Part shown: piece after piece, positions 25,471 through 63,903 of the stretch
Layout: each line of letters opens with the position of its first letter
Numbering within the stretch: position 1 is the stretch's first letter
Assembly (NCBI RefSeq): GCF_964275005.1
Contig: NC_092689.1
Span: 2,511,001 to 2,575,000 of the forward strand
Length of the DNA stretch: 64,000 nt
From: Diadema setosum
Lineage: Eukaryota; Echinodermata; Echinoidea; Diadematoida; Diadematidae
Direction: 5' to 3'
The notes under the pieces: generated by a model
What the model was told of the DNA's origin: nothing
What the model saw: only the letters and a program-made list of their open reading frames with translations
Databases searched by the model: none
Translations under genes and position numbers: made by a program

Positions 25471-26300
25471 TATAAGATGTAACTTTAATGAAAAATTTTG
25501 CTTGGTGATCGCAGACTTAGCCTCCACACAACCAAACCTTGAAGGTAGCTAGATATGATTAACATAGATCAAAATGAGTGTGAAATATCACATTTGCTGA
25601 GTAGAATGTGTCTCACAGAGCAGTGGTACTGAAACTTCTTATTTGCCACAGAACTGAGATGAGCAACTTATTGCACTGATTATGATGGTGGTGCAGATAA
25701 AACATGGAGCAACTCATCAAAGGACGTGTACTGTGGTGCTGATGACGTTGGATTAAAGGGGGATAAAACCCAAAAATACATAGGCCTATGGATTGAGTGA
25801 ATGCAGCAATATTAGTAGAATACTGTAAAAGTGGATATTTTTGTGAGACTAATTTTTTGCGCTCTCCCACGTAAGACAAATTTTGTATAAGATGTAACTT
25901 TTATGAAAAATTTTGCTTGGTGATCGCAGACTTAACCTCCACACAACCAAACCTTGAAGGTAGCTAGATATGATTAACATAGATCAAAATGAGTGTGAAA
26001 TATCACATTTGCTGAGTAGAATGTGTCTCACAGAGCAGTGGTACTGAAACATCTTATTTGCCACAGAACTGAGATGAGCAACTTATTGCACTGATTATGA
26101 TGGTGGTGCAGATAAAACATGGAGCAACTCATCAAAGGACGTGTACTGTGGTGCTGATGACGTTGGATTAAAGGGGGATAAAACCCAAAAATACATAGGC
26201 CTATGGATTGAGTGAATGCAGCAATATTAGTAGAATACTGTAAAAGTGGATATTTTTGTGAGACTAATTTTTTGCGCTCTCCCACGTAAGACAAATTTTG
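25471..26300 (+). repeat. Tandem duplication of a 415-bp unit
   Basis: The unit 25471-25885 (starting TATAAGATGTAACTTTAATG) is repeated at 25886-26300 with only a few substitutions. Each copy includes the left end of a family A foldback element (TTAAAGGGGGATAAAACCC at 25753 and 26168) plus the beginning of a second inverted element (ACTGTAAAAGTGGAT). The identical 88-codon minus-strand frames in both units are by-products. Confidence 0.9.
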
Positions 26301-26941
26301 TGTGTTTTTAATTCTGCGGAATCAAGACATCAACTGCTGGAACATATGGCAAGCAAAAATATTCGCCTGCTTTTATTTTTGTGCCAGCTTCTGGTTGCGC
26401 GAAATGTACGAAAATTTCTACACTGCAAAAATGTCCACTTTTACAGTACAACAGTGAAAGTTTGAGAGAAATCGGACAATCTGTTCAGGAGTTATGAATT
26501 TTGTACATTTTTGGTGACGAGATTGCTAGATCAGAAGACTACTTCATATCGTGATGTCATATAATTATGCACTACGATATTAAGAAAATATAGAGAAAAT
26601 TCCACAAAATATTGTTTCATACGAAAAGTACAGAATCCCTGAACTTGTTACTGACGTATGTCCAGTGTCATATTAGTCCTCCTGCTTTCTGAAAGACATA
26701 AATCTGGTGCTCTTTCATTATGCTAGAAAGGTGAAAATATCTTGAATTTTCAAGATCGTGCACATGTGATGTCATGATCTGTAGTAATCTTCTGATCCAG
26801 TGTTCTCGTCACCAAAACTTCAAAAATTCATAACTTTTGGGCAGATTTTCCGATTTTCCTCAAACTTTCACAGTTGTATTCTGCTGATATTGCTGCATTC
26901 ACTCAATCAACATGTGTCAAGGGGTTTCATTCACCCTTTAA
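26168..26941. mobile_element. Foldback element, family A, copy 2, carrying a nested element
   Basis: The left end TTAAAGGGGGATAAAACCC and right end TTCACCCTTTAA match the element at 6979-7544, as do internal blocks (GTGAAAGTTTGAGAGAAATC; GATTTTCCTCAAACTTTCAC). The left arm is interrupted by another inverted-repeat element at about 26236-26452. Confidence 0.75.
26236..26452. mobile_element. Small TIR element nested in the family A foldback
   Basis: Starts TACTGTAAAAGTGGATATTTT and ends AAATGTCCACTTTTACAGTA, giving terminal inverted repeats of about 20 bp. It splits the family A arm between AATATTAGTAGAA and CAGTGAAAGTTTGAG, which are nearly contiguous in the uninterrupted copy near 7038-7060. 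No coding capacity. Confidence 0.7.
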
Positions 26942-33417: not shown

Positions 33418-33508
33418 CGTAGAGCTGTTATCGTATCAGAGCGAGACGTAGAAATCCTTTTTCGTTTATCGATAGAGCCGCTAATTAGTCCTTCAAAGAG
33501 TCGAACAT

Positions 33509-38523: not shown

Positions 38524-38567
38524 GGGTGGGTTACATGCGAATAACAGAACGCTTGAGAATCGACATT

Positions 38568-39926
38568 ATGGCTGGTGTCACTCCTACACTTTTGTTCGTC
38601 ATTGCTCTTGGCATTGGTACAGGTAAGACTGTCTTTGCTATCGTTTTCTGCAAGAAAGTAAGCCCGCTCTTCATGTGATCAAACCGTCTAATGAAGATTG
38701 ACAAAAAATTCATCCCCTTAAGTTTTGGTAAGGGACATGCATCCCCTTAAGTTTTGGTAAGGGACATGAGTGTGCAGACAATCTCGTTTGAACTCAGTGT
38801 CAGACTATAGTCATTTCAGCTGCAGACACCAGCCCGTTTCTACCAGACGAGGTGATTTTCAATCACGCAACTTCCTTTTCTTTTTGGTACGGAATATCAA
38901 TCAACGTTGGTTGCAGAGAGGTTTCGGAATAGTAATAAATAATATTCGGAATATGTGTACTTGAAATAATACTGTTTTTTTTATATATATATCTTTCATC
39001 AAAAGTGAATAAACGAATATTCAGCAATCAGCAGTGGCGGATCCAGAGGGGGCGCACCGGGCGCGCGCCCCCTGTTTATTTGCTGTTAAAACAAAACAAA
39101 AAAGAAAAGAAAAGAAAAAGAAAAAAATGAGATGAAACCCGGAAGTAGCACAAGAAATATTGTTTGCCCCCTCCCCTTTACGGAATTCATGGATCCGCCT
39201 CTGATCAGTAACAGTGTCATCTTACATGTATAACAGACAAATCTTTCGCATTTGATCACTTTCGGGCATGGCCTTCTTAAACCATTCTCATCAGACATGT
39301 CACAGACGATTTAAGTAGGCCTACTTGCAAAAATGCACGTAGGGCCTACATTCAAAATACATTATTATCGACATGCTGAAAGAGCTTTTGATTTCAGAAT
39401 AGTATAAGGGTGCCGTAGTGAGGAAGCTCTATGGTACCCTAACTTTAAAAAGAAGGTCATGAGTTCGAATGTTGCCTGGTGTTCCATCGAAAGACAAGAT
39501 GTTTCACTGTTTACCCAGCCTATCCTGAGGTACTGTTAGTAACAACGCTTTCTGGACATTGATCTTACAAATCTGCAGAATCCATGCCGTTAATACTCCC
39601 CTTTTGTGCTTTTGTATATGCGTCTATGCAATATTTCATTCAATATGCTTACTTACGTATGTACACAATTATGACATGTTTCTCTTTGTCTGTGGATGAT
39701 AGCCGTAGTACAGTGTTTACCCATTTCTGAGCATAATCCTGAAGACAACGAACTCTCGACCGTCTTCGAGGATGAGGTAGACTGGACGCTGGCGTGTCGC
39801 ACCTGCAAACAACTTGTCACCAACGCCGTGTATGCCTTGCTCGTCGAAAAGTCCGCAGTGAGTTCACACATTTGTCCATGCACAGAGTTAAGTTCGTGGT
39901 TGCAGGACCGTCGATATATATATGTA

Positions 39927-39985
<59 letters not shown>

Positions 39986-41279
39986 TTATATAATTGAGAG
40001 GGGTACTCTCAGTTCAAGATTATTCGCTAATGAAATACACATTGTAGTAAAGTCACAATTTAAGAACAGTAAAAGTTTCATCACGACCTGGAAAAGTAAA
40101 GTTGCGGAAATTTCATGCGTTTTCGAAAATATGTAATACCTGTAAAGATTACACTATGCCAAGTGTATATGCACGTGAGCTGAGGCGATGTCTCGGCTTA
40201 CGATTCTTCTATTGATTCAAACACCAAAATATAAGAGAATATATCAAATACAAATCAAAAAGATTATTAAAACATTTTACGTACTCAGGAAAAAAAAGAC
40301 AGTGATAACAAATATGTTGTCTGTTGTCGTAAATCCTTTGCTATTTCCCTTTTCATGAAGGAATTGCTTTACATCGACAACATTTCTTGCTACATTATCT
40401 AAGTCTATCATTATAGAGACTTATAATTTTCTCCATGCTTCATGGCATCCGAATGTGTCAAGCATAAATCTATCTTGCCTTTCCCTCTCTCCTTCCTTTT
40501 CACTTTCCTTTCTTTCTTCTCCATCCGTATTTACTTTTTAAATCTTACAGGTATCAAACTTCTTCATCGACCCGTGCAATGACTTCTTTACCGACCTAAC
40601 AGACATAAGCAACTGCAAGGTTGCGATCTCGATAGATGTAAACTTATTTTACACTATCGCGCTTCGTATTTTGGTGAGTATAAGTTTTGCTCATTCAGAA
40701 TTCTTCACTATAATGACAATGGCGGTTTACATCATACATCTATATAAAATCATCGAAAGTCAAAGTGATCATTTTGCGATATTTGTTGGGCCGAGTGAGT
40801 GAAATTTCACGAATGATTCATTATAGTTTATCAGCAGTACGAAAAATGTAATGTTCGTAACTATCTATCCATATTTTTAGTGTATGTAGGCTTAATTACA
40901 GAGAGATATATAGCGTAAGAGAGGGATACACAATATAGTATTTTTCAGTGACCTTTCAATGACATGGAGCATCATGGGACTAGCATTCTTTGCCATCAAT
41001 TTGGTGACATTGCTTACGATTTTGATATTGATACCTCTAGACATGCCGTTATTTTTATTGTGTAAGATTTTAGATCAATGTTCTCTATCACTTCTGCAAG
41101 TTGTGGCATCATTTATGTCATATCTCGATCATTCAATAACTCTATCAATTCTAAATCAATCTTTTCTCCCACTCTCTATATCATCTCAAAGTAACCTCTG
41201 CCATTTGCGTTGATTACATCAATCAATTGTCCATCATTATATTTTTGTCTCTCAATTATTGTGGTAATCTCAGACTATT

Positions 41280-41323
<44 letters not shown>

Positions 41324-41410
41324 GGGCAGAAACCAGACGAAATTTGTCACAAGCTTCTCGACGTCTGCACACCAAACGCCTACAATGGAACAGAACTTCG
41401 AAAGCCGTGA
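38568..41410 (+). CDS. Small secreted saposin-B-type protein, copy 1 (4 exons, 137 aa)
   Basis: Exons 38568-38622, 39703-39857, 40551-40673 and 41330-41410, all GT/AG and in phase. Exon 1 is a signal peptide (MAGVTPTLLFVIALGIG). An in-frame ATG at 38535 would add 11 residues, but the downstream Met is the one conserved with copy 2. The mature part shows the saposin-B cysteine pattern: CRTC (helix 1 start), then DPCNDFF ... NCKVA in the middle, and ICHKLLDVC at the end. These would form the three disulfides of a compact four- or five-helix lipid-interacting domain. The protein ends ELRKP. Members of this fold bind lipids or permeabilise membranes (saposins, amoebapores, surfactant protein B); which role applies here is not known. 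It is tandemly duplicated as 44871-48271. Confidence 0.85.
39032..39203. mobile_element. Non-autonomous hAT-like element
   Basis: The 5' end CAGTGGCGGATCC and 3' end GGATCCGCCTCTG form 13-bp inverted termini of the kind common in hAT MITEs. ATCAG directly flanks both sides. The inside is GC-rich at one end (GGGCGCACCGGGCGCGCGCC) and purine-rich in the middle. It lies in intron 1 of saposin copy 1. Confidence 0.7.
39405..39550 (+). mobile_element. tRNA-derived SINE-like sequence (copy in saposin gene 1)
   Basis: GCCGTAGTGAGGAAGCTCTA resembles an A-box region, and TCATGAGTTCGAATGTTGCC a B-box. The tail shares GAAAGACAAGATGTTTCAC. A homologous block at about 46150-46300 lies at the same place in the second gene, so the insertion is older than the duplication. 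Confidence 0.5.
39916..39990 (+). repeat. (TA)n microsatellite in saposin gene 1, intron 2
   Basis: Long TA array right after exon 2; it creates a false extension of the exon 2 frame. Confidence 0.92.
41279..41320 (+). repeat. (CT)n microsatellite acting as polypyrimidine tract before exon 4
   Basis: About 20 CT units end a few bases before the CCCGGGCAG acceptor of the last exon of saposin gene 1. Confidence 0.9.
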
Positions 41411-44807: not shown

Positions 44808-44870
44808 CACGAAAGCTAGACTGGCAAGTTAGGTGACCTGTGCTTCACAGGACATATGAGAATAGACATA

Positions 44871-45279
44871 ATGACTGGTGGCACTCGTCTAGCTTTGCTT
44901 GCTATTACTCTTGGCATTGGTACAGGTAAGACTGTCTTTGGCTGTTGTTTTCTGCAAGAAAGTAGGTACGCCGCGTTGCTAATCATCAATATAACTATCC
45001 AATAAAAAATGTCCGTTGAGTCTTAATCAAAATTCACATCTTTCTTTGTTGCTGAGAGCATATTATCACAATGAAACCTGACGATCTTTTATACCCTCAT
45101 CAGCACCGCCACTAAAGCTGTTTCTCAGCAGCACAGCTGCACATTCGAAGTAATCTACTGAATTTGTCATCAAATCCATCTTCCTTTTCTTTTGGCTATT
45201 TATGATCTTTTCAACGTTAGCTGAAAATAGGAATAGTCAACGTGCTGGCAACCGAAATCACATGTCTTGCCTGGTAGGG

Positions 45280-45330
<51 letters not shown>

Positions 45331-45899
45331 GAGACAATGTAGATAACAGAAGATGTCGCATGAAACCGGCAGTGTTGTGAAGCTTTCGACCGTGGTCTTC
45401 CTCAGCTTTAATATCTGTTTATGAAGCAAAATATATGTTTTTGAGCATAACAAATCTGAAGTCATAAACACAATATATTGAATATAAGTTGAGCATGAGT
45501 TAATAGTTACATGACATACTTGGTAATATTTTTTGGCACTTTGCAACACATTCAACAATGTATAACTGTAAATGAGTGTATAGTGAGTATATGTAGCATA
45601 CAAACATATCATCCAAAAAGATTATCAAACATATATCATAAATAAACTAAATAACATAATTACCTGCTAATTACATGCTTAACTTATATTCAGTATATTG
45701 TGTTTATGACTTCAGATTTGCTATGCTCAAAAACATATATTTCGTTTCACAAACAGATATTAAAGCTGAGGAAGACCACGGTCGAAAGCTTCACAACACT
45801 GCCGGTTTCATGCGACATCTTCTGTTATCTACATTGTCTCAACTATGATTTCACTTAAGATGACAGAGGCGTGCGGTAGGAATATCAGCATCATCACAC

Positions 45900-45933
<34 letters not shown>

Positions 45934-45934
45934 C

Positions 45935-45976
<42 letters not shown>

Positions 45977-48271
45977 CATGGCTTTCCTTTTGTGCCACTT
46001 CTGGACATTGTCTTTATAATCTACTAGGATGATTTAAGAGATCTAAAAAAATGGACGTAGATTAATTCGCCTAACATCGCAACATTATTGTCGGCATACT
46101 GAAAAAATAAGTGATTTCACTGAGATTTAGAGTGTATTTCTACGTTGAAATTCTATGTTGTCGTGAAGAACCTCAACGGCTCTCCGCCTTTAAAAAAAAA
46201 AAAAAAAAAGAAGCATACCATGTGTTCGAATCTTTCCCATGCTTATACCTGAAGACAAGATGTTTCACCAAGTCCATTCTGTGGTACGGTACTGTTGATT
46301 ATAGTGATCTATGGAAAAGCAGTGCGGACTATACACATGCTACAGTTTACAATTTCATACATTGAGTGAAACTGATTTTGTGTTTGTGTGTGTGAGTCCA
46401 TATGTAGGTATAAGTATGATTTACTCATTTGATTTTGTACATTATGACGTGCTTCTCATTGTCTGTGAATGATAGCAGTCGTTCAGTGTTTACCCATTTC
46501 TGAGCGAAATCCTGAAGACCCTGCTGAAGACAACGTACTCTCGCCCGTCTTTGAGAATGAGGTGGACTGGACGATGGCGTGTCGCACCTGCAAACAGCTT
46601 GTCACCAACGCCGTGTATGCCTTGCTCGTCGAAAAGTCCGCAGTGAGTTCACACATTTGTCCATGCACAGAGTTAAGTTCGTCGCTGTTACATACTTTAA
46701 AATGACATTTTAATAGGGAGGCTGTCAAGGGATCCAAAGGTAACTTCAGGGAAACAGTAAGCTCCCACTTAAAGAAAAGTTTCATCATAATCGGATAATA
46801 ATTACAATTGTAAATTATTTGTATAGAAGCCCTTTGTGTATTCGCAAATGAGTGATATCTGTCATGGTTATGTAATATGCACGTGAGATGAGATCATTAT
46901 TTGGTCATCGTCTCCCCGCTTTCCAATAGGTTTATACACCAAATAATGAAATAAAATGTCAAAAGTGCGACAATCATTCATTTTCAAATCCTTTGCTATA
47001 GGCTCCCCCACACACTATCTTAATTTTTCGATATGAATATGACATAATCTGTAGACTGATTTAAATCCATTCCGTATCATAATATCAATTCAAGTTCAGT
47101 CTGCATACACTAAATTTTCAATTATTTATTACTTTTCATTGATCTGTAGATTTGTTGTACAAATGTATATTGTGTGGAAAGCTGAATGAATGAATGAATG
47201 AATGAATGAATGAATTAATTAATTAATTAATTAATTAATTAATGAAATCAGGATGAGTGAATGAAAATGCCGATCAAACAAGACGTCAATGCTAGATTTA
47301 TAACAGCTTTTTACATATACGCAATTGCTATACTCTTTCAAAGGATATCAACTGTGTCGTGATACACTGATACAATATCTACATGTATTTCAAATCAAAT
47401 TCAAATTCGAATTCATTCAGACTTTTCTGCATTGAACATAGCACATATTGAATACAGTTGTTTGCTTGTTTGTTTGGTTTTTGAATGATCATAATGACGA
47501 TCTTGCCTAATTTGCCCTTCAATTTTTCTCTCCCTCTCTTTATCTCTCTCTCTCTCTCTCTCTACTCTCTCTCTCTCTCTCTCTCTCTCCCTCTCTCTCT
47601 CCTGGTATATACTACTTATATCTTACAGGTATCACAGTTCTTCATAGACCCGTGTCATGACTTCTTTACCGATCCCACAGACATTAAAAACTGCAAGCTT
47701 GCGATCTCGATAGACGTAAGGAAAGTGTATGCGTCCATACTTGGTATTTTGGTAAGCATTACAGTGTTCTGGTTCAGTAAGAATTCTTCAGCATGTCGTT
47801 TGCGTTTTACTTCATCGAAAGGCAAAGTAATTGTGTTTCAATATCAATGCTTTTTGGCTCAAGTGATAAAATTCAACGAATGATTTATCATCGTTCATAC
47901 TATGATCGTTCATGCTACTATACTACTTGACGTATGGATCCAAGATCGAGTACACAATGCCTTGCCGAAAATCACAATCCATATATTTGAATGCCGGTTA
48001 TTTTATGCTCCACATCTCGTACAATATGTCAAGACATCTTTTATATATATATTCTCTATCTCTTTCTGCTCGAAATTGGGCTTTTTTTGTCGAATTCATC
48101 TGTCAATTTTCCGTCATTTCTGTCTCTCAATTATTTTCATATTCTCAGACGATTGCTCTCTCTCTCTCTCCCTCTCTCTTTCCCGGGCAGAAACCAGACG
48201 AAATTTGTCAAAAGCTTCTCGACGTCTGCACACCAAATGCCTACAATGGAACAGAACTTCGAAAGCCGTGA
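44871..48271 (+). CDS. Small secreted saposin-B-type protein, copy 2 (4 exons, 141 aa)
   Basis: Exons 44871-44925, 46476-46642, 47629-47751 and 48191-48271, with the same phases as copy 1. Signal peptide MTGGTRLALLAITLGIG. Exon 2 is 12 nt longer than in copy 1, adding four residues (DPAE) before the CRTC motif. Exon 3 keeps DPCHDFF ... NCKLA but differs after AISIDV. Exon 4 (KPDEICQKLLDVC ... ELRKP) differs from copy 1 by only one residue. The six cysteines are retained, so the fold and secretion should be the same. Introns carry (TA)n, (CT)n and a foldback element not seen in copy 1. Function beyond saposin-type lipid or membrane interaction is unknown. Confidence 0.85.
45285..45328 (+). repeat. 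(TA)n microsatellite
   Basis: TA array abutting the left arm of the foldback at 45327-45844 in intron 1 of saposin gene 2. Confidence 0.92.
45327..45844. mobile_element. Foldback element with arms of about 170 bp in intron 1 of saposin gene 2
   Basis: The left arm GTTGAGACAATGTAGATAAC and right arm GTTATCTACATTGTCTCAAC are exact complements. The match continues inward through GAAGCTTTCGACCGTGGTCT and its inverse, and through ACTTCAGATTTG. There is no counterpart in intron 1 of copy 1, so it inserted after duplication. No ORF. Confidence 0.85.
45899..45975 (+). repeat. (TA)n microsatellite
   Basis: TA array with a few TG and CG variants. Confidence 0.92.
46150..46300 (+). mobile_element. tRNA-derived SINE-like sequence (copy in saposin gene 2)
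   Basis: Diverged counterpart of 39405-39550: a GTGTTCGAATCTTTCCC B-box-like stretch and the GAAGACAAGATGTTTCACC tail. An A-run has expanded inside it. Confidence 0.45.
47186..47243 (+). repeat. (TGAA)n/(TTAA)n tetranucleotide array
   Basis: GAATGAAT units pass into ATTAATTA units in intron 2 of saposin gene 2. Confidence 0.88.
47523..47602 (+). repeat. (CT)n microsatellite before exon 3 of saposin gene 2
   Basis: An extended CT array shortly upstream of the TCTTACAG acceptor at 47628. Confidence 0.88.
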
Positions 48272-49842: not shown

Positions 49843-51712
49843 CTAAGGTATTCTCTCGGCTGCATTGCTCCCACCAGGACAGATACTCAATCGCTGACAG
49901 GCAGTGAGGGGATCTACCTGCGCCAGCGGGTTGATCATAGTCGGTGTACTGGGGTTTATGACGCTTAGGCACTGTATAGGAAGAAAAAAAAAACACAAAG
50001 GGGGGGGGGGGGATTATTGAGTGAGGAGAGAAAACATGGCATGAGTATCGTAGTTGTATGAGAAAAGTGAACAGTGAATGTCATTTTTATACATCGCCAT
50101 GAATGTGGTATGTTGTGGAATATTGTTTGAAAAGAGGGTAATATGTGTACTAGCAGTGATCTTTCATGTTATCAGAGTCAATCGGAACATTAATGATACT
50201 GCAGTTGGAGGGAAAAAAACTAGACGATTTGAACGGAAGCGGAAAGTCAACAGGAATTGATATCAAGCGTGTTATATATCACACATTTCAGAAAAAAAGA
50301 AACATTGTACATGTACTGAAAAAATAGGTTGCATATAGCTTGTAAAACCGACAAATTTCACATTTTAACGCAGTCTCTGATGACTTTCTCGGAAAGGAAA
50401 TATGTTTACCCTACGAAATACGATTTTTTTTTTGTGGGGGGGGGGGGTCTTTCAGCTAAATTACCTCATCACGCAATTTTATTGGTTGTAGTGTTTTCGT
50501 CTCTTTATGATATGGCTGTTACCAAATGAGAAAGATCGAATTAACGATAACAACGACATTAATGTAGATATCAATCACAACTTTTCCTGTCGTCGAAGAA
50601 CGATTCTCACCTTTTCGCGAATTCTTCCGGCGGGAAGCAGACTGCAGGCTTGTCCCATCGTGTCACTGTGCTGTTGCTGGAGAAAGAAAGAAATTTCGGC
50701 TGAAATTAACGATTTGGGAAATTGGACATCAGAATTCTTCTTATTTTTTTTCATTAGAAATTTATATATTCATGAAGGTTATCAAATATTGTGAATATAG
50801 TGTGAAATATTTCAACATCATTTCACTCGTAAATTGGATGTAGTCAGTATAAATTAAAAAGAGCCAATGCTTCAACTGATGTGGCTTTCCCCCGCTTCAT
50901 ATCGCCAAGCTTTCGGCCCGCTCGGATTTGATCGTACCTTCATTTCTTGCAAAAAACGAAATCATAATAATCGGAATCGGAACATGAATTACTGATATAC
51001 AGATAGTCTGAATCATAAATAAATATACAGAGATAGATCATTCTTACGGAAATACAGATTATATGTGTACTTCGAAAGGTAAAAATCCACAAACGCTCGC
51101 TCTTTCTTAAGATATGTCAAAAAGAAGTAAACGGAGGAGGCTGTCATGGCGTGAAACTCACGAGGAACTAAGCCATACCATATAGAAAACAACAGAACAG
51201 AACCAGGTTTAGGTCCTTCTGCACTTTCCTTTAGTAGTTTAAAGGGGAAGTCCAGTCAGCTCATAAAGTTAAAATAGTAGAATAGCTACCATTTCAAAAA
51301 CTTGTTATATACATTGAACGTTAACACATCTCGAGTCGATAACCTGATGTCAGAAGGGGGTAACCCTTTCAGAACCACTACCACAATCTTGCACTTAACA
51401 TTGTACACAAACAAGATGATGTTGATAGTGAGGGAGTTAAACAAAATTAATGCAATTATTACCATCTGGTTGTTGATGAAGGTAGACATTCCAGTGATAC
51501 CCTTCTTGCACAGCTCACATCTCAGTGTACCCTAATAGATGAATGAAAGATGAAGAAACGTTATGATAAGGCTAGAAGAAAATCACGACAAATCATGGAT
51601 TTCATTTGGAAAGACACCAAGGCGTCGATCAAAACTGGAGCAGTTACTCCAGGGTGGTAGAGGACGCAGGATCTGTTTGGCCTTCACAGACTCTCTGAGA
51701 TGCTTTTGAGTT

Positions 51713-51770
<58 letters not shown>

Positions 51771-54700
51771 ATTGTGGCCCGGGCTACCGCGAATGTCGAG
51801 TCCTGGATCACAAGCAAAGTATATAAATAGTCACAAAAAGACATGAACTTCACCTTTTTGTTTATTGCAAATGGTTATTTTCAGATATCATAGCATTCTT
51901 TTCAGTTGTAAAAAAGTAACAAACAAAACACACGACTGAATGAATTACAGAGAGGACAAAACTTGTCAGTGAAGTACTATAGTAATACCCTTTTATCCAT
52001 GATATTCTCATTTGCCTCTCTTTTCACTCAGTTGCTTTTTTTTTCACTCATTATATCACATGTTCCAAATATATTCAGTGTATCAGAGTTTATCTCTTGC
52101 GATGTACGGTATGGACCATATTTACATATATGCTCAACACTATGGATCGTGAATGTTGATAAATCTCACATAATGAAAAATAAACATATACAGATAAACA
52201 GAGAGAGAGAAAGAGAGAGAGAGAGAGACACACACACACACAGTTGCCAACACATACGACGCGATAAAGATGATTGGTTACCTTCATGTAGTGCTATACA
52301 CTGATGTAGATTATCATTCAGTTATACAGTCGAAGTGTAACCGTCAAATTCTCATCATTCAAAATGCTGGACCTGAAGTTACGTCATGCGACGTTTCGCC
52401 GATTAATAATGAAGTGGTTTTTGTTTTTTGTTGGGTTTTTTTTTTTTGCATCCTTCTGGCAGGAATTTCACGCATTGATGCGCCTGCCGGCTTACTGCAC
52501 GTGGAAGACGGAAACATTGTCAATGGGTTCTGATGTCACCAGGAAAATTGCAAGGATTTTTATGTTGTAGAACTCAACAGTCTTTAAAAGCTTGTATGAG
52601 CCAACACAAAAGACCAAGCACGGCAGTGTGGACAACATCCCTGAATCACCAGTTTATACACACCTTACAGAGAACAAACGTTCCTTCAACACCAAGAACG
52701 TGGTTGCAGTTGACAGAGGAGGCACGTTGATTCAAACATGTAGGTCCATGGTTCGAACGATCGAGGGGTCAAAAGAATCCATACGGGAACGGGTGGCCGA
52801 ACCCAGTCTAAATGGGAAGGAGACCGCCTTCTTTTCAACCTATTACATGCCTGGTCTGGGATCGGGCGATCCGAGAGACTCAGAGCCTCTTTCAGCCATC
52901 AGTGTGTGAACTTCCTGCACAACTGCACTCAAGCAAGACCGTTCTTCCACTGCTATGGAAGGACACCAAAAGAAGCTGATTGTTAATTGGCGAAACTTTG
53001 CATGACCGTAAGTTCTGATCCAGTTTTCTGATTCATAAGAAATTTGAGGCTAGTGCTTTGAAATACATACATTAGCGGCTGCAGCATCGAGACACTGTCC
53101 GAGTGGTCCTTGATTGGCCAGCATTTGGATTGGTTGTTCGTTTACTGAAAACAAACAAAGGATTTGATAAATGGACAAGTCATATCCATAACGTTAGTCT
53201 TTGTTTCCAAATCTTGCAGAGAAATTAAAGAAGCCTCTTTGCTGATGCAAATTCGCATTCTGTCATTTTGAAGACACTTTATTCGCATCTATGTCGTTAC
53301 ATTCTTTACTGTAAGGCACGAGAATTTTCTTGTGAGTTCTCTACAACAGAAGTCTCATGATTTACAAAAATGTAAAACTGATTTTCACGTATTTAAGTGA
53401 TTTTGTAATCATTACAAAATTAGGCATTTTTCATACAGACATATTCATACATTCTGCGAAAAAAAAAATGGAGGTACCCACTCAAAAGACTGTGCTTGTA
53501 CAAGGTGGGCACCTCACAGGAGGAAAAAAAAAGTGAAAACTGAACTACAAGTGTGCGGGATGAAAAAAAGAAGTGGAAGAGGGGAAAGGGAAGAGGCAGA
53601 AATACAAATAAAGAGACGAGACAACTAAAAACAAAAGCCTAGATCAATCGATACATTCAAGATCAAACCAACAGAGACTATTAGCCATAATTAGAAGTGT
53701 AGAGCGTTGAAAGCGACGAGAAAGTGATATATACGATTGTATGGAATTGCTGATAGCAGAACATATTATCTGCTCTGTGAAGGCGCGTGTAATAATGTAC
53801 AAGTTTGCAACAAGAAAAACAGGGGATGCAATGTGGAATTCCGCGAAGGACGCGACCTTGTAACTTTTGTAAATTGTGTAAGTATAAACAGCATGCAATT
53901 CAACAACTGACGGGGTCAACATATCTACATAATAATGGACTCAAATGTGAAGAACAGCATCACTATTTGCCAGCGATACATTGTTGGTATCAAGAAAGAA
54001 GGCTTTGATGAGTCAATAATGTATTAATATTTTCCCTAGGACGAGTACTATGTGTTATGGCATAGGACCCTACATGCTACTGGGTGTCCTGATTGCCCTC
54101 TCGTTATCATTAACTGTTTTATGTTGCCATTGCAAGCTTCTCCATTGTTCATACAACGCCACTACTTTTGCTCATACATCCACCTTCACTGACAAATAAC
54201 TGGTAATTTTCATCAATATGGCAGTGATGAAATAGCACATGGTTCTTTTGAAATCATCCATTTCTACATTATTTGATAAATTTTCGTTAATACATCCACC
54301 ATGTAATTACGATTGTCAGCAGGAAACATGTGGTTTGGTGGATAAGACTCTAGACTCTCAAATGGGAGAGCGCAGGGTCGAATCCCACCCGGTACGTTCA
54401 TCCCGTGGATAACATATTTTACTCCCTATGTCCGTATGGACGCGTACTTGATAATGCTAGGCTAATGAAGGACAGCCATCTTGGAGAAGAGTGATAACAC
54501 TAAGAAGAATATCCCGAGTAGAGGGCCCCAATTATCATAAACATTATTATCATTACCATTTTCAATATTTTCATAAATACCGCAAATACAGTATTATTTC
54601 ATCATCAGTGTAATTACACATTGTCTGAGATTATTTCTTTAAGGTTTGATTTGATCGTGAAGTAATCAGGAGGATGCGATAATGTAGCAGTACTACTGCT

Positions 54701-57700
54701 ATGTAGTTTGAATCGCCGCTTTGATGATTAAATCAAGAGACTATCCATTGTCAAATCAATACTTCGTCTTACCGTTCAGTGGCTGCTCGCTGGAAACTTC
54801 TCGCTTGCGTCGTCCGGTCTGATATCCACCCATGCCCATATTTGGGTATCCACCCATGCCCATATTAGGGTATCCACCCATACCCATATTAGGGTATCCA
54901 CCCATGCCCATATTTGGGTATCCACCCATGCCCATGTTAGGATATCCGCCCATGCCCATACTAGTATATGGGTATCCCCGATTTCCCATGTTCGGCATTC
55001 CTGTGTAGAAAGCAAAGAATTTACATGAAGAAATTTAAAAACAAATGTCTTGATAAAACGGATTTCAGTGTATGAATATAAGATCATATAAAATATATCT
55101 AACATAGAATATCAACAACCATATGCACACACAAGCACACGCACTTGCGTATGACACATTCAAACCATGCCACATTAATAATAATAATAATAATAACTCA
55201 GTATTCATATAGCGCTTATCAATGAAATTCTCTAAGCGCTTTACATACTATATACCAAAACATAAACTACTGCATGATCCAAAATACTACAATTAACACA
55301 AATAATTAATCACTTCAATGATAATAATAATTGCATAAGTACACGGTGGTTTACACTACAATGAAAGCACAATACCCTCAACAGGCTGGTAACATTTACC
55401 TGAGCAACTAATTACGGAAAAGATAAGCCTTAAGTGCAGTTTTGAAACTGTTGAGGGATGGCTGATTTCTTAAGCTCAAGGGGAGTGAATTCCAGAGTGA
55501 AGGGGCGGCGACTGAAAAGGCTCTGTCACCATGGGTGTGGGAGACTACCTTAGGGACTTTTAGGAGATTCTGTTCAGCTGATCGTAGAGAGCGGGATGGT
55601 TGATATGGAGAAATCACGCTAGAGATATATGTGGGAGATTTTCCTTGAAGACTCTTAAATGTGATAACTAGGATCTTGAACAGAATGCGCTGATCGATGG
55701 GTAACCAGTGTAGTTGTTGAAGAGTATTAGATACATCATGTTTCCTAGGAACCCTCTGGACAATCCTGGCTGCAGTGTTCTGGATTCGCTGAAGTTGGCT
55801 GATCAGGGATTGTGGGAGTCCAAACAACAGGCTGTTATTGTTATCAAGTCTACTGGTTATAAATGCATGAACTAAAGCCGACGTCGCTGGAGTAGTGAGA
55901 TACTGTCTAATCTGTCCTATCCTTCGGATGGCTATCATGGCAGAACGGCAGATAGAGCTGACATGTTCTTTCATTGTGAGATGTTGATCCATGATGCAAC
56001 CAAGATTCCTTCCGAATGGGGATGCTTCCACCACCAGATCTCCAACTCCAACGGACAACTGTTCAGGCATATGCCGAAATCGCGATGAGAAATGAACGAT
56101 TTCAGTTTTTGCATCATTCAGTGTAAGCTTGTTCTCGTGAGACCAAGCTTTGACATCTGCAAGGCATTCACTGACAAGAGAGAGTGATTGAGCCCTGTCA
56201 CTTGATCGGAAAGTCAAATAAATTTGGGTGTCGTCAGCGTACATCATCACTTCCAATCCATGCGCTTTAACAATATCATATATCGGAGCACTATAGAGTG
56301 TGTAGGTAAGTGGACCCATTACAGATCCCTGTGCTACACCACACGTGTCGCTGTAAACGCTTGAAGATGAACCGTTGATCATCACGACATGGGATCTGTT
56401 AGCCAGGTATGACTGAAACCAGTTGAGGACTGTACCGCCAAATCCATAGCGTTCAGCCAACCTCCGGAGCAAGATTTGATGGTCGATAGTATCGAAAGCC
56501 GCACTATAGTCTAAGAGAACAAGCACAACTTCCTGGTGGCCGTCCAGCGCGCCAGAAGAATGTCATTTTGGACCCTTATCAGAGCTGTTTCCACGGAATG
56601 ATTGGCTCTGTATGCTGACTGTACATCTGGCAGAAGGTTATTGATAGCCAGATAGTCCTTGATCTGGCTTGCAGCTATTCTCTCAACCAACTTTGCGACA
56701 AAGCTCAAGATCGATATGGGACGGTAACTACTGAGTTCATTACGAGGAAGGTTGTCCTTCTTCAGCCTGGGTGTTACAATTGCCTGCTTCATGCTCTCTG
56801 GCACAACTCCTGCCTGGAGACTAACGTTGACCATATTTGTTAAGGTAGCAAGCAGGGCTGATGAACACCTTTTCAATAAAGACGTCGGGATAGGGTCCAG
56901 ATTACATGTAGAGTTTGATGTTAATTTGATAGTTTCCAGCACTGTGTCATCAGTGACAACATCAAATTCCCTCAAAGTAGCAGTACAATTCTCAGTAACT
57001 TGAACCGACATATCTTGAAGGGGGCAACTGTTTAACTCAGCCCTCAATTTCTGGATTTTCCCATCGAAGAAGTTTCCAAAAGAGGTGGCAAGTTGCAGGT
57101 CAGAGTCATGTTCTGGAAGAACTGTCTGTGACGTGGGTGCGGAGAGGCTGCTCGCCAAGCGAAAGAGGGCGCGGCTGTCAGCAACACGTACCTTTTCCAG
57201 AAAATAATTGGATTTTGCTTGCAGAAGTTCCTTGTTGTATGATTTACAACTATCCTTGTAGATTTCTTTGTCAACAGTTAGCTTCGTTTTTCTAGCACGA
57301 CGCTCCTTCTTTCGTCGCTCTTGCTTAGCACGGCGCAAGCTCTGAGTGTACCAAGGTGCATGTGGCCTCAAGATAACATCTTTCTCTTCTATTGGAGCAT
57401 GCTCATCAAGGATTCCTCGAAGCTCTCGATCATAGAGTTCCATCAGTTGTTCTGGAACAGTTGGTAGATCATCACTACATAAATCCGAGGAAGTGATGTC
57501 GTTACAGAACCTGTCCATGGCAAAGTCCTTCAGTTTCCTAGCAGTAATGTGTCGCTTAATTGGATCGGGTCTTCTCGTATTCAAGCGACACATAATTGCA
57601 GAATGGTCTGATGGTAGGCTCAGCGATGTTGTAACTGACGATACCAGGGAATCGTCGTCCCTAGAAATAATGAGATCAAGGGTATGGCCTGCCGTGTGCG

Positions 57701-60700
57701 TCGAGCATGCAATGTGATTCTTTAACTTAGACATTTGGAGGATGTCCAGAAAACTAGACGCATCAGCACTATCCGACTTCTCAATATGTATGTTAAAGTC
57801 ACCGGCAATGATCAGTCTCTGAGGTGATGCGAGAAGTATCTCCAGCAAGGACGAGAACTCCCTATAGAAGGTGGCACTTGAAAGCTTATTCTTTTTCGAA
57901 GCTGGTGGTCGATAAAGTGCAATAAGTCGGAAAGTACACGAGTTCGCTGAGGCTAAAGTCAGATCCAGGTATTCAAAGGACTTGAAGTCCTCAAGAGGAT
58001 TCCTGGTAACATGGTACCCTTTGAGAAGTAGGACGCCAACCCCACCACCTCTGCCACTATCACGAAAATGTGGTGGAAATCTAGATGAGGTAGTGTCTCT
58101 TTGAGAGTAGCAAGAGTATGACTATCCTTCTCATTACCAGTCAACCATGTCTCTGTGAGCACCATTATATCCAGTTTGGTAGTGATAACAAAGTCACAGA
58201 GAGCGTTACACTTACCACGGGACTTAATAGATCGGGCATTCCACAGCATATAATTCTTATATTAAGGGCAGCATTTGAACATGAGCCATCTTATGCGCAC
58301 GCATACAGGCAACACATTGAAATCGCGTTAAAGTTGGATGGCTAGAAAATATCGGGTATAAAGAAGACTGTTCTAAGGCCTACCACCAGTTCTTAAATTT
58401 GCATGTATTTACAATACATTACTGTATGATTTATTACAAATCGACTGTGTATATAACCTAGGCCTAGGCCTAATCATAGGCGACTTTTTGGGATGTCGAG
58501 TAGGAACCGAAAACAAAACGCCACTTCAATGTTAACATTTCTCTACTTGCAAACGCACACGAGTTAACAGAACGACAAACGAAGTAGCTATGGAAAGGGT
58601 TACAGCTCGTTATTCCGAAGGTTCGTTATTCCGAAGGCTCTTCAGTCCGAAGATTCGTTATTCCGAAGGTTCGTTTTTCCGAATTACATTTTCGGATGAA
58701 CAAATCTTCGGAATAACGAACCTTCGGAATAACGCCACAATTAATGTTCGGATTAACGAACCCTTATTCATTTTCGGATTAACGAACCTCTAGGTATAGG
58801 GAATTTGTGTGTTTCGGATTAACGAACCTTCGGAATAACGAACCTTCGGAATATCGAACCTTCGGAATAACGAACAGCACCCTATGGAAAGTACCTGGGT
58901 TTTGCTGGGGTAGTTGCGGTACCTGCGGCTGCTGGGGCAGTTGTGGCTGTTGGGGTTGTTGAGGCCGTTGGGGTTGCTGAGGCCTTTGGGGTTGCTGTGG
59001 TCGCTGGGGTTGCTGCGGTCTTTGGGGTTGTTGTGGGCGTTGTGGCAGTGGAGGTGATTGTGGCTGTTGTGGTCTAGGTCTCTGTTGGTGATGTTGTCTA
59101 CGACCACCTAAACCTGGAATTCGAATTCCAAGTCGACCTGTACAACGAAGAAGAAAGAATCAACAACATCTGCAACACCAGTCATCAACAACAGGGCGGT
59201 GAGTTAGCTCAGTCGGTAGTGCATCCGCCTCATGATCCGAAGGACCCGGGTTTGATTACCGAGTCGAACTGAGCAATGTTTTGTGTAATTATACCGTCCT
59301 CTCTAGCAAGAGGCAAAACACTCTCGGATAGGACATAAAATGGAGCTCCTGTGTGTGAGAGAGTCACAACTCATTCAGCATTATTTAACGCAAAGAGCAG
59401 GGTGTTTAACCCGGTAAAGTGGTTCCGCCTAACTTCAAACTAGACCCCATGGAAGACCATCTATTGCAGTTGAATATGGGCTATCCAGCCATCTTCTCAG
59501 ATGGAAATGAAACAAACACACAAACAAACAAACAATTTTCCTCGAAGCTGGTATTTGCAGTCAAACTGATATGTGTCAGATTGTTGCCCTATAGCTACTG
59601 ACAAGCATGGGGACAATGCAGTCTGAATTAATGTACACATGTAGGTTGTGATATTGCTGTCACTGAAGATGCCATTTTAGGATGCAGCGAACCCGTTCGG
59701 GAGAAGTCAATTCTAGCAAACGTTTGCTTGTCGTTCAGCAGACAATAGGCAGCCGATATGTGAATGTATTATTGTTGGGATGTTTTACTTACCGAAAACG
59801 CTGTTCAGAATTGCCGGAATGTTGATCCACGGCTCATGGTGGAAGTGTGGAAGTTGGGGCATCTGAGGTCTCTCGGGCACCTGGGGTGCCATAGGACGCG
59901 GGGGCGTTGTCGGCGTTTGCGGGGTCTGGGCCACTTGGGGCAACTGGGGCCTTTGGGGATTCTGGTTGTATGGGTAGAAAGGGTTCCCATTTTGTGGGAA
60001 CTGGTACGGATTATACTGGTTTGGTATTTGTGGCCACTGTGGCACTTGAGGCATAATGGGCTCCCTCGGTGCCTGGGGTACTCGCGGGGTCTGTGTCCCA
60101 TCGGGATTTGACCCTGGAACTTCAGGGGGTATGGGGTCTCCCGTCGCTTCCGTACCAGCGGACCCACACATTCGCAGATTTGTGCACATTTGACGGACCT
60201 CCTGTTAACAGAATTTATGACCAAAAAAAATGTTATAAGTTGTTATATGCCTTGGTAATCCCGGAAGAAACCACACGTTTCAATTACTTGATGGTAGTAG
60301 TACTATGTGTGAATCTACAGATGGGGGTAAATGGATAGAAGGAACAGCATCAATAGTATCAACTAGGGGTAGTCAACTGGGTAGTGTAGACGTTCTTGCA
60401 GTATAGGATAAGTAGCAACACAGAAGTAGCAGTCACAGCAACTTTTGTAGGATGTAATGATAATAGTATAAAGAGGTAGCGATAGTACAGTAGGAATAGT
60501 ATTGGAAGAGTTGTTGTTGCTTTATAAGCAAAAGGAGAAAGACAGAAAAAGAAGAAGAGATATGAGGGGTAATAGACAAAATTGGCTTTGAGAACATTCG
60601 AGTAAATGCATTCATCTCGTCGTTTTCTTGCATATTGGTCACCTGTTATATATAATGTCATCCGAGGCATCACGTGAGCAAAGGCACATATTCGTCAACA

Positions 60701-63700
60701 ATAAATGGACGTAGAGTGTCAAACACATATCACTCGTGACCACCAAAGAAATTTAATTTTAACGGCCATCCCTTTTACACACTCACAAATACATATAACT
60801 TTTATTTCGTTGTTTTGTTTTTATTTTTGTTTGTTTGTGTGTTTGTTTGTTTTTTTGAAAGCTTACCAACCTCGCGCTTTCGACGATAGTTGGTGCACTT
60901 TGGCGCCTAAGTGCAGAGCCGTTACGGCTCTCCCTAAGTGGTCTGTTTGAAACCTACTACAGTGTACTAGTACCTTTGTTTTACTCTACTGTCGTGACAC
61001 TAATAGAAAACAGCAATAGGTCATTGATTCGAGCTACCATTATTATCTTACCAACATTTCACCGGCGTAGTTCTTCAAAGCCTGGGGGAACTGTGCGGCG
61101 ATATCTGCGCAGCTGGTTCCATTCAGACAAGGCATAAGCTTGCAAGCTTTGTTGAGGAGAGCCGAGATTTGGGTCTGGAAAAGGAAACATGTCCACTCAT
61201 TTATAACTCTTGTGAAGTAAACAAAAATATAGACTTATTCCTTACTTAGCGTACCTTCTTTAGGATAAAGGCATTCGTTCCAGTGGATCCCGGCCTTATC
61301 AATACCTTTGCTGCATTGTGAAGTATGCATATATGATTATACAGAGCATATGAACGTGGGCTAAGTGAGACACATCTGATAAGGTATCCTTCACTAAAGG
61401 GTTTGTTCTCATGGTTTTTAGATTCACTTCTAGTATCCCATAGTACTTCAGATCGAGTGATATTCGTTATTCCGAAAGGTTAATCCGAAAATGAAGGAAA
61501 AAAAATGCGCACTAACGAAATTTTCCGAATTACGAACCATTTTTCCCTGTCGGATTAACGAACCTTCTGAATAACGAAATCTTATTTCATCTTTGGAACT
61601 ACCAACCTTCGGAATAACGAATCTTCGGATTCGAAATAACGAAATGTACTCCTCAGAATCAGCCGTGGACTGAGAGCAGTTTATTGATGGGAAGTTTGTA
61701 ACACTACCAAGTTCCGGAAGTTTCACCCTCTATAATGGATACTATCGTTTAACTATGTGAAGTACACAATAGATTCCGATGTTTTCCAATTTTTTGGACT
61801 TGTTCTGCGTTGATAAATCCAAAGAAGTGAGAATATCATTTCAAAAAGAAAAGAAGAAATGAAACAGTATAAAGACAATTAGCATCTCAGATTTCCTTCA
61901 ACTGTATAACTCATTCTTAATTCGGTTTGTTTTATACGAAATAGCTTGCTCGGGACAATTTCCTTGGTACATATTACTTGTTCTTTTGGTAAAACTTTGA
62001 ATTTAAAGAATGAATTTTAAGTCTCGTGCTAAATTACGATGCGTTTGAAATATTCATTCATTCTGAATGCATATTTCCGATTTCCAGCCATGTTCTATAG
62101 CTGTTGATATAATAATGAATGCGTTAATAGAGCAAGTGCCAGACTCATATATCGTAACATAAAGGAAAATGTGGAGAATGATCTGTTTTTATCATTCGTG
62201 TCATCAAGGGAAAACATAAACATTATTCCTCAGGATAAAGGAACCATTTTTTTTTTTCATGTGGTGTATCGGAATATCTATGAAACATGTAGTGTTTCTG
62301 TCAAGTTGGAACTTCAGTTTTTGTGCATCTGGAATTGGAAAATGATAGGTATATCCGCTAGTGGTGTCTATCTAAATAATGTATAAAATGAATCTGGAAA
62401 TCTGTTTTGATTTATTTCCACTTTTTCATGTGAAATTAAAAAATGATATATGAGTTTAAGAAATTCGCAAGACATAAAAGTCAACGTTGCGATGATGATG
62501 TCAACAGGTCTTTAAAGTTGGCTGCATGTGTAATAGTGTTTGTGTGTATGCATGTATGTATGTGTGTGTGTGTGTGTTTGCATGTCTTTATCTCTTCTTG
62601 GAGGTTCCTGCATGGGTGATGGTGGCTTACCGTCGACACGTCGCTGAGAATGTCCTGCCTCATCTGTCCCATCATCTCTACGCAGGTAGAACACATTTCA
62701 CCCTTGACCTTACCGAAAACTCCACCTGTGAATCACAGAATAGACAATGCACCGCCTTTTAATTGGGCTGTGACAAGAAGGAGTTCTTTGGCTTTAGTCT
62801 AAAGTTATTCTCCGATGGATTCAATGATCATTTTGTAAGTAGCGATATCATTCACAACGGATCCGATTCGGGATGCGACTTAACAAACGCAGTTAACGTT
62901 TATTTATTGTGTTCAGCCGTATTAAGAAAGATAGTCCGCTGTTTAACACAAACAGCAACAAAATATGTACGCAGTACATGTCATGTCCTCAGGAAAGTGA
63001 AAGTGAAGTGCTGATATATAATTATGTATCAATTAAATACCGTCTAATATCTGTAATTCCATGATCAAAATCTACGTGATGCTATATGCGTCATTTTGAT
63101 TCATTGACATGAACTTTTTAAGAAGTTATTGAGATCTCTTGCAGAGATGTATCACATTGAATCGGGATGATTTTAGATGTAGTGATTTTGAAACCCGTTT
63201 TCGTTCAAAATTATGAGAAAGAATGTTTTTATCTTCTAGTAAAAAAGACAAATCCCATAGAAGTAAGGTACGTGTGCAGTAATGGGAGTGGATCGACTAA
63301 ATTGGCAGAATAAGGGGAATAAGGGAGCATGGAAAGGATTTTGGAAACACGCAATTATTACGTACTTATCTCACTTCGGAATCTAGGGAAGGCATTTCTG
63401 ATCGACCTCCGGGATCGGCGCCCGTAGTTTGGTAGGAATGGCTGCTGTTGTCCTCTCCCCGGGAGACCAAGGGCGTTCCATGCATTGCTGTATAAGCTTG
63501 CCCAGGGGTTAACACCTTGGTTGGTTCCTTGCCCCCTTCCTGGATTCATGGGGTTTACACCCTGGTTGGTTCCTTGGCCCACTCCCGGATTCATGGGGTT
63601 CAGGCCCTGGTTGGTTCCTTGGCCCATTCCCGGATTCATGGGGTTTATACCCTGGTTTGTTCCTTGACCCATTCCCGGATTCATGGGGTTTATACCCTGG

Positions 63701-63903
63701 TTGGTTCCCATTCCCGGATTCATGGGGTTAATGCCCTGGTTGGTGCCTTGGCCGAGATTTGGATTAGACCACGGATTCATGCCGCCATTCATCCAAGGGT
63801 TCATGGGATTGAGCTGAGGCGTCTGTGGGAGGTTAGGAAGCGAAGGCTGCTGGGTTTGGCCCCGTCTGCATAGTTTCGCAATGCTACACAGCTTTTGTGG
63901 ATT
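49843..63903 (-). CDS. Saposin-B polyprotein precursor with repetitive linkers (C-terminal 654 aa, 10 exons; 5' end outside window)
   Basis: Minus-strand exons: 63903-63375 (or to 63366), 62725-62631, 61174-61052, 60201-59793, 59137-58895, 55000-54773, 53144-53071, 51531-51463, 50676-50611, 49971-49843. All are GT/AG and phase-continuous (1965 nt). Order: the end of one SapB domain (LCSIAKLC); linker 1 with six NPMNPG-type 13-15-mers ending in a polybasic site (RRSRRS); a complete SapB (MCSTCVEMM ... ACKLMPC ... MCTNLRMC); linker 2, which is Pro/Gln-rich, then PQQPQR repeats, then six MGMGGYPN units and GRRKRE; a last complete SapB (CELCKKG ... ACSLLPAGRIREKC ... ACQRLSIC); and a short tail ending ERIP. 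Prosaposin-like secreted precursors are cut into single lipid-binding SapB proteins; the RxxR sites before both complete domains suggest furin cleavage. The signal peptide and earlier domains should lie to the right of the window. Composition of the linkers is unlike prosaposin. Confidence 0.82.
51720..51769 (+). repeat. Poly-A tract (50 nt)
   Basis: Uninterrupted A-run; on the transcribed minus strand of the saposin polyprotein it is a U-run in the intron before the last SapB domain. Confidence 0.9.
52200..52243 (+). repeat. (GA)n/(CA)n compound microsatellite
   Basis: GAGA units followed by CACA units; intronic. Confidence 0.85.
52590..52910 (+). mobile_element. Decayed retroelement fragment with GIY-YIG/Penelope-like C-terminal similarity
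   Basis: Plus-strand frames show SPVYTHLTENKRSF and KESIRERVAEPSLN, which resemble the conserved end of GIY-YIG-carrying retroelement proteins as I remember them. It is a short, broken fragment in an intron of the saposin polyprotein gene. Family assignment is tentative. Confidence 0.35.
54318..54545 (+). mobile_element. tRNA-derived SINE
   Basis: GTTTGGTGGATAAGACTCTA resembles a tRNA A-box region, and GGGTCGAATCCCACCC a B-box. It is followed by an unrelated body ending in ATCATTATTAT-like sequence. It is not a tRNA gene because the arms do not pair throughout. Confidence 0.6.
54820..54980 (-). repeat. In-frame 24-bp coding repeat (MGMGGYPN) in saposin polyprotein linker 2
   Basis: Six consecutive 24-nt units with few synonymous changes, followed by the polybasic GRRKRE. 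The exon (55000-54773) is phase 1 at both ends. Confidence 0.88.
55176..58260 (-). mobile_element. L2/CR1-like LINE (endonuclease and reverse transcriptase), degraded
   Basis: Minus-strand frames give, in order, an apurinic endonuclease (WNARSIKSRGK, LTETWLTG, then AGDFNIHIEK, THTAGHTLDLIISRDDD, PSDHSAIMC) and a reverse transcriptase (YRPISILSFVAKLVERI, LDYSAAFDTIDHQILL, GVAQGSVMGPLTY, YADDTQIYL, HAFITSRLDNNNSLLFG, LHWLPIDQRILFKIL). The 3' end is a GCGCTATATG block and a (TTA)n tail. The frame changes near 57.9 kb and again near 56.5 kb, just before the RT core, so it cannot make an intact protein. No ORF1 is visible, so it is probably 5'-truncated. It lies in an intron of the saposin polyprotein gene, same strand. 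Confidence 0.9.
58604..58877. repeat. Palindromic TTCGGAATAACGAA repeat cluster
   Basis: The left half repeats GTTATTCCGAAGGTTC, the right half its reverse complement GAACCTTCGGAATAAC, about eight times in all with small variants (ATTAACGAACC). The whole can fold on itself. Related clusters: 61459-61650 and, decayed, 27419-27780. Confidence 0.85.
58895..59137 (-). repeat. In-frame 18-bp coding repeat (PQQPQR) in saposin polyprotein linker 2
   Basis: The exon consists largely of 6-residue Pro-Gln-Gln-Pro-Gln-Arg units with synonymous drift. It is flanked by phase-1 introns, so the exon can be skipped without shifting the frame. Confidence 0.8.
59195..59535 (+). mobile_element. tRNA-derived SINE with (CAAA)n tail
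   Basis: GTTAGCTCAGTCGGTAGTGC is a tRNA-like A-box region and CCCGGGTTTGATTACC a B-box, 30-40 bp apart. A non-tRNA body and an ACAAACAAACAA tail follow. It sits in an intron of the saposin polyprotein gene. Confidence 0.72.
61459..61650. repeat. TTCGGAATAACGAA repeat cluster, second copy
   Basis: ATTCGTTATTCCGAAAGG at the left, then several GAACCTTCTGAATAACG / CTTCGGAATAACGAA phrases. Same family as 58604-58877, slightly more diverged. Confidence 0.75.
62537..62580 (+). repeat. (TG)n/(ATGT)n microsatellite
   Basis: TG-rich short array just downstream of the 62725-62631 exon in the intron. Confidence 0.75.
63515..63760 (-). repeat. In-frame 45-bp coding repeat (GQGTNQGINPMNPGM) in saposin polyprotein linker 1
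   Basis: Six units; one lacks two codons and the last degenerates to NPWASLY. Substitutions are mostly at one position (I, L or V) and at the end of the unit (M, V or R). Confidence 0.88.

Follow-up and report, generated by a model that had tools for sequence, protein, structure and literature searches.

What kind of product is made from a gene in which SapB domains are joined by long, repetitive linkers? We addressed this question for the sea urchin Diadema setosum, using a window of 64,000 nucleotides (contig C5:2511001-2575000; all other positions without a contig name are counted from the first letter of this window) from an assembly of 912.7 Mb in 102 contigs. A sequence-only reading had proposed that the region 49843-63903 holds ten exons of a SapB polyprotein with three kinds of tandem-repeat linker and furin-like sites. 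Based on the gene model, domain comparisons and repeat analysis described below, we favour, with some confidence, the view that the locus encodes a secreted, convertase-processed precursor with three SapB domains, of the proSP-B/prosaposin kind, in which the SapB modules would act on lipid or membranes and the repeat peptides would form or bind a matrix.

Gene model of the SapB polyprotein

From stop-to-stop open frames and splice borders, we obtained ten exons in the window, which span 63903 to 49843 on the minus strand. All nine introns that separate these exons are GT-AG with phases in agreement, which reproduces the ten-exon feature that had been proposed. Its outer borders were also recovered, but the start of the gene lies outside the window: three further 5' exons are located on the same strand beyond the window end, at contig C5:2575981-2576097, 2578841-2579043 and 2581530-2581575. 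These comprise a signal exon, an exon with the first two cysteines of SapB1 (C1 and C2) and an exon with the next two (C3 and C4). Both SapB1 exons were recognised by eye from their cysteine spacing, as the first SapB profile had overlooked them. The full model consists of 13 exons at contig C5:2560843-2581575 on the minus strand, with 12 GT-AG introns whose phases agree at all 12 borders, an agreement that is partly built in because splice sites were picked with phase in mind. Two donors of exon E1 are phase-compatible. The parts of the gene within the window are as follows.

63375-63903, minus strand: exon E1, SapB1 tail (cysteines C5 and C6), NPMNPG array (45-base-pair (bp) unit, 63505-63753) and RRSRR furin-type site
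62631-62725, minus strand: exon E2, first part of SapB2 (cysteines C1 and C2)
61052-61174, minus strand: exon E3, middle of SapB2 (cysteines C3 and C4)
59793-60201, minus strand: exon E4, last part of SapB2 (cysteines C5 and C6) and Pro/Gln-rich linker in a single open frame
58895-59137, minus strand: exon E5, GGRR dibasic site and PQRPQQ repeats (18-bp array, 58945-59042)
55411-58261, minus strand: pieces of a non-long-terminal-repeat (non-LTR) retrotransposon (endonuclease and reverse transcriptase) in the intron between E5 and E6, outside the protein
54773-55000, minus strand: exon E6, MGMGGYPN repeats (24-bp array, 54823-54964) and RRKR furin-type site
53071-53144, minus strand: exon E7, stretch linking the RRKR site to SapB3
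51463-51531, minus strand: exon E8, first part of SapB3 (cysteines C1 and C2)
50611-50676, minus strand: exon E9, middle of SapB3 (cysteine C3)
49843-49971, minus strand: exon E10, SapB3 cysteines C4 to C6 and stop codon

The predicted product has 776 amino acids. Its N-terminus is hydrophobic (MRILVFVTLAALFSA) and was judged by eye, with no predictor, to be a signal peptide; it is followed by SapB1 (residues 61-134), linker 1 (172 amino acids), SapB2 (307-383), linker 2 (308 amino acids) and SapB3 (692-765). Two exons join domain and linker without any splicing: in E1 a single open frame runs through the end of SapB1, the NPMNPG array and RRSRR, and in E4 one covers the end of SapB2 together with a Pro-rich stretch. 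The 18-bp array of E5 and the 24-bp array of E6 are tied to the SapB exons by splicing alone. The gene model appears well formed, and its predicted product appears to be an unusual form of a precursor type already known.

Domains, linkers and cleavage-type sites

All three domains carry six cysteines in the order C-x2-C ... C-x10-11-C ... C-x5-C, and in SapB1 and SapB3 these fall at identical positions (3, 6, 32, 44, 68 and 74). Searches against solved structures gave weak but almost full-length matches to proteins of the saposin fold. The best match of SapB1 is NK-lysin (expectation value (E) 2.4e-4, over nearly the full domain length), while SapB2 matches prosaposin chains (best E 0.001, with 77 of 84 submitted residues covered) and SapB3 matches a prosaposin chain (E 5.8e-4, with 77 of 113 submitted residues covered) as well as another listed as saposin C (E 0.0011). 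With a profile of three human saposins alone, SapB2 scored 20.6 bits and SapB3 25.6 bits, and for neither did any of 200 cysteine-keeping shuffles score as high. When SapB2 and SapB3 were added to this profile, SapB1 reached 14.2 bits, a score equalled by 1 of 200 shuffles. The cysteine spacing noted in the sequence-only reading is borne out, and the gene has three complete domains.

The introns of SapB1 and SapB2 are placed alike, 8-10 residues before cysteine C3 and five before cysteine C5, as are those of two small neighbouring genes described below. The net charges of SapB1, SapB2 and SapB3 are +1, -1 and +3. As these values are near neutral, a classical, strongly cationic pore-former is not indicated. 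Pfam found neither a SAPA module nor a C-type lectin-like domain in the polyprotein.

The long linkers with three repeat types were found independently by Tandem Repeats Finder, which reported a 45-bp unit in 5.7 copies (63505-63753) encoding NPMNPG, an 18-bp unit in 5.4 copies (58945-59042) encoding PQRPQQ, and a 24-bp unit in 5.9 copies (54823-54964) encoding MGMGGYPN. Linker 1 lacks both cysteine and acidic residues; in linker 2 there are 11 acidic residues and a single cysteine, located just upstream of SapB3. We then compared the units of the 18-bp and 24-bp arrays with their consensus, on the borders given by Tandem Repeats Finder. In the 24-bp array 6 of 7 changed codons are synonymous, against 21% expected (p 4.7e-4), and in the 18-bp array 10 of 11, against 26% expected (p 1.4e-5); the 36-bp unit of the latter array gives 7 of 7. 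This excess of synonymous changes is evidence that E5 and E6 encode protein. Constraint at the protein level is clear for these two arrays and weaker for the 45-bp array. An earlier count (6/6 and 11/11) was set aside, since its units had been chosen within perfect protein repeats and it was therefore biased.

The motif RX(K/R)R occurs twice in the precursor, at residues 285 and 652, each time between the linker repeats and the SapB domain that follows: RRSRR precedes SapB2 and RRKR precedes SapB3. At least two such motifs were seen in 195 of 20000 shuffles of the 654-amino-acid protein encoded in the window. Together with the secretory-type N-terminus, these two sites between modules are features of a convertase precursor. 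Plain dibasic sites are present after SapB1 (LCRRGQ), within linker 2 (GGRRQH) and, once more, inside SapB3.

Three of the five dibasic clusters are immediately preceded by Gly, at precursor residues 284, 520 and 652 (E1, E5 and E6). This arrangement is that of amidated peptide precursors; it may be due to chance in a Gly-rich protein.

Related genes and other features of the locus

The polyprotein gene is apparently present in a single copy. A genome search with the window protein, in which 68 of 1271 candidates were scored, gave 15 matches and no second copy: 8 of them fall on exons of the gene itself, E8 and E9 being absent from the list, and 7 are at other places. The 7 matches elsewhere (contigs C16, C8, C24 and C10) were rejected, as the five that we read are simple repeats and the remaining two overlap two of those places. 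Within flanks of 60 kb (upstream) and 20 kb (downstream), nothing beyond the exons described here gave a SapB match below E 0.24, with a profile that is not exhaustive, as it missed both SapB1 exons. This profile was built from SapB2, SapB3 and the small genes, which makes its matches to them a matter of construction; the comparison with the human saposins alone leaves them out.

Elsewhere on the same contig, at about C5:34.935-34.946 Mb, we observed a series of prosaposin-like exons. Its exon pieces suggest introns before cysteine C3 and before cysteine C5, as in the polyprotein. The existence of a separate prosaposin-like gene fits a non-lysosomal role of the polyprotein, without showing it. 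The SapB_1 matches on contig C16 are taken by us to resemble acid sphingomyelinase. Bindin occurs in sea urchins and in certain other echinoderms; matches to its family were found at neighbouring places on contig C20 (E 2.9e-54 and 3.8e-12) and in none of 14 control genomes. This points to a sea urchin, although the controls do not separate sea urchins from other animals.

Two small genes, both predicted to encode secreted proteins, adjoin the polyprotein gene on the opposite strand:

38535-41410 (exons 38535-38622, 39703-39857, 40551-40673 and 41330-41410), plus strand: first small SapB-like gene, four exons, with a hydrophobic N-terminus
44856-48271 (exons 44856-44925, 46476-46642, 47629-47751 and 48191-48271), plus strand: second small SapB-like gene, four exons

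They form a tandem pair, with four matching stretches that are 71-88% identical, and both end in C-x6-C. Against a profile of SapB1-3 plus the human saposins they scored 12.1 and 11.6 bits, which 1 and 0 of 200 cysteine-keeping shuffles reached; the human saposins alone gave 5.0 and 4.2 bits, scores that 4 and 11 of 200 shuffles equalled. Neither matches a Pfam family over its cut-off, the first has no PDB match, and there is no saposin among the PDB matches of the second. Consequently, their SapB identity seems weaker than that of the polyprotein. It depends chiefly on the order of the cysteines and the positions of the introns, for which reason we call them SapB-like. A genome search with a small SapB-like sequence reported seven matches, six of which are exons of this pair, while the seventh has E 2.26. 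The one small neighbour whose net charge was tested has -2. Sequence A1 was left out after MAFFT placed cysteine C4 out of register.

The window also contains a TRIM-like open frame of 663 codons with a B-box zinc finger (31447-33435, minus strand; Pfam E 1.3e-10), an open frame of 499 codons with no Pfam match up to E 1 (12153-13649, plus strand) and a 415-bp tandem duplication with 99% matches (25471-26301). Arrays of a 16-bp unit, TTCGGAATAACGAACC, occur in both orientations at 58607-58875; sequence similar to this unit is located at about 61450-61640 and, in translation, also upstream at about 67.2-67.4 kb in continued window coordinates. No transfer RNA (tRNA) and no Rfam family were found in the window.

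Possible roles of the precursor

The modelled exons, the spacing of the cysteines, the repeats and the basic sites can all be read from the DNA. From these we infer that the precursor enters the secretory pathway and is cleaved by a convertase, and that the modules and peptides thereby released act outside the cell. The interpretation in the sequence-only reading is partly supported: the sequence shows a SapB polyprotein whose N-terminus is of the secretory type and whose linkers carry repeats and furin-type sites, and the defence, mucus, adhesive and biomineral roles named there would be candidates. Our model suggests that the precursor would enter the secretory pathway through its signal peptide, and that a furin-like convertase would cut it at its two RX(K/R)R sites, RRSRR and RRKR, with the plain dibasic sites as possible further targets. 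Cleavage would free three disulphide-bonded SapB modules that bind lipid or membranes, as well as several peptides rich in Pro, Gln, Gly and Asn, net neutral to basic and probably disordered. The likeliest setting would be a secretory-granule product exported from the cell. Once outside, the SapB modules would act on lipid or membranes, and the repeat peptides would either make up a hydrated or mineral matrix or bind to one. The working mode would resemble that of proSP-B, with the addition of long matrix-type spacers, whose composition is similar to that of the repeats in spicule matrix proteins.

According to the accessible part of PMC4933373, proSP-B carries three SapB modules in one secreted, cleaved precursor, together with a SAPA module, and a defence role has been reported for one released propeptide module. 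The urchin precursor shares the three SapB modules in one chain. It differs from proSP-B, whose SAPA module is N-terminal, as Pfam found none here, and by its linkers of 172 and 308 amino acids with furin-type sites. In the same source, prosaposin is described as four SapB and two SAPA modules; compared with it, the urchin precursor has the tandem SapB domains and introns before cysteines C3 and C5 that resemble those of the prosaposin-like exon pieces in this genome, but three SapB domains, no SAPA module found by Pfam, and long repeat linkers. Among the literature matches listed, all open-licence papers, none described a repeat-linked SapB polyprotein; those that came nearest were on a brachiopod shell SapB protein (PMC4536745) and on two-SapB precursors of Dictyostelium (PMC11542183).

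Several observations weigh against the explanation we favour. In the gene model, the acceptor before the second SapB1 exon (exon 1b), AAG, is unusual, and the E5 donor, GTACTT, is weak. SapB2 carries one extra cysteine, and SapB3 lacks the intron before cysteine C5 and has one at cysteine C4 instead. With the human saposins alone, SapB1 scored only 10.9 bits (E 0.13 for 5392 sequences), although this is still above all 200 cysteine-keeping shuffles. The Pfam check proposed for these domains gave a mixed result: excised SapB2 passes the SapB_1 cut-off of 25.2 bits with 25.7, but the full model stays below it with 21.7, and SapB1 (13.0 bits) and SapB3 are below the SapB_1/SapB_2 cut-offs, the best Pfam match of SapB3 being a zinc finger under its own cut-off. 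Genome-wide searches gave one match for SapB_2 and 11 for SapB_1, none of them to an exon of the polyprotein gene. The 45-bp array varies in protein too: 6 of 10 changed codons are synonymous in five matched units, a count that carries no significance test. A polybasic motif had been described before each complete domain; SapB2 and SapB3 have one, but there is none upstream of SapB1. In addition, no dibasic site occurs for about 136 residues past SapB2. Together, these two gaps make the release of every module uncertain.

One alternative is that the gene encodes a secreted defence precursor, with SapB modules that form pores or permeabilise membranes like NK-lysin, amoebapores and naegleriapores. 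NK-lysin is the best solved-structure match of SapB1, two small SapB-like genes adjoin the polyprotein gene, and amoebae have multi-SapB precursors with antimicrobial products, including two-SapB precursors in Dictyostelium (PMC11542183, accessible part). AplE and AplK of Dictyostelium and the naegleriapores likewise combine several SapB modules and a signal peptide in one precursor; the accessible part of this source names no repeat arrays for them, the word furin is absent from its text, and the urchin modules differ in being near neutral. The charges of the three domains and of the small neighbour tested argue against this role, as do the weakness of the NK-lysin match and the lack of any Pfam family over cut-off or solved saposin among the matches of the small neighbours. 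We regard it as possible, though fairly unlikely.

The repeat linkers could instead be the main actors, as in spicule matrix proteins, with SapB replacing the C-type lectin domain and tethering the matrix to membrane or vesicle lipid. The genome is that of an echinoid, and the accessible text of PMC2909932 describes many spicule matrix proteins as a lectin-like domain plus short Pro-X-Y repeats, X being mostly Asn, Gln, Gly or His; according to reference titles in the part of PMC2614417 available, PM27 has a Pro,Gly,Met repeat and SM50 has tandem repeats rich in Pro and Asn. The urchin precursor resembles SM50, PM27 and SM37 (PMC2909932, same part) in joining a folded secreted domain to short Pro/Asn/Gln/Gly repeats, a likeness that is compositional only. 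A SapB domain has also been reported in a brachiopod shell proteome (PMC4536745, accessible part). In contrast to the SM50 family, the polyprotein has no lectin-like Pfam match, and composition is a weak test; moreover, the word saposin occurs 0 times in PMC2909932, and sapB and prosaposin occur 0 times in PMC2614417. A biomineral matrix protein is an unlikely reading. In our opinion also distinctly unlikely would be a matrix-forming polyprotein in which SapB modules stand in place of the spicule-matrix lectin domain and convertase cuts would free membrane-active modules along with separate Pro/Gln, Pro/Asn and Gly/Met matrix peptides.

The precursor could also be a diverged second prosaposin, that is, a lysosomal sphingolipid activator precursor. 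Prosaposin chains are the best solved-structure matches of SapB2 and SapB3, and the intron places are similar. Another prosaposin-like gene is present in the genome, however, as exon pieces only, and Pfam found no SAPA module. Furin-type sites and long repeat linkers are not known from prosaposin. We consider this role quite improbable. That the locus is an artefact or two or more genes, with the repeat exons belonging to other transcripts, is very improbable: E5 and E6 are tied in by splicing alone and the intron between them holds a retrotransposon, but SapB tails and linker share uninterrupted frames in E1 and E4, phases agree at all 12 introns, and the synonymous bias marks E5 and E6 as coding.

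Returning to the secreted, convertase-processed SapB precursor, if the gene is expressed and its product cut as predicted, saposin-type lipid binding and disordered repeat matrix proteins would be joined in one secreted product. If true, this would widen the known uses of SapB precursors and would provide a specific candidate for the mucus, adhesive, immune or skeletal secretions of echinoderms.

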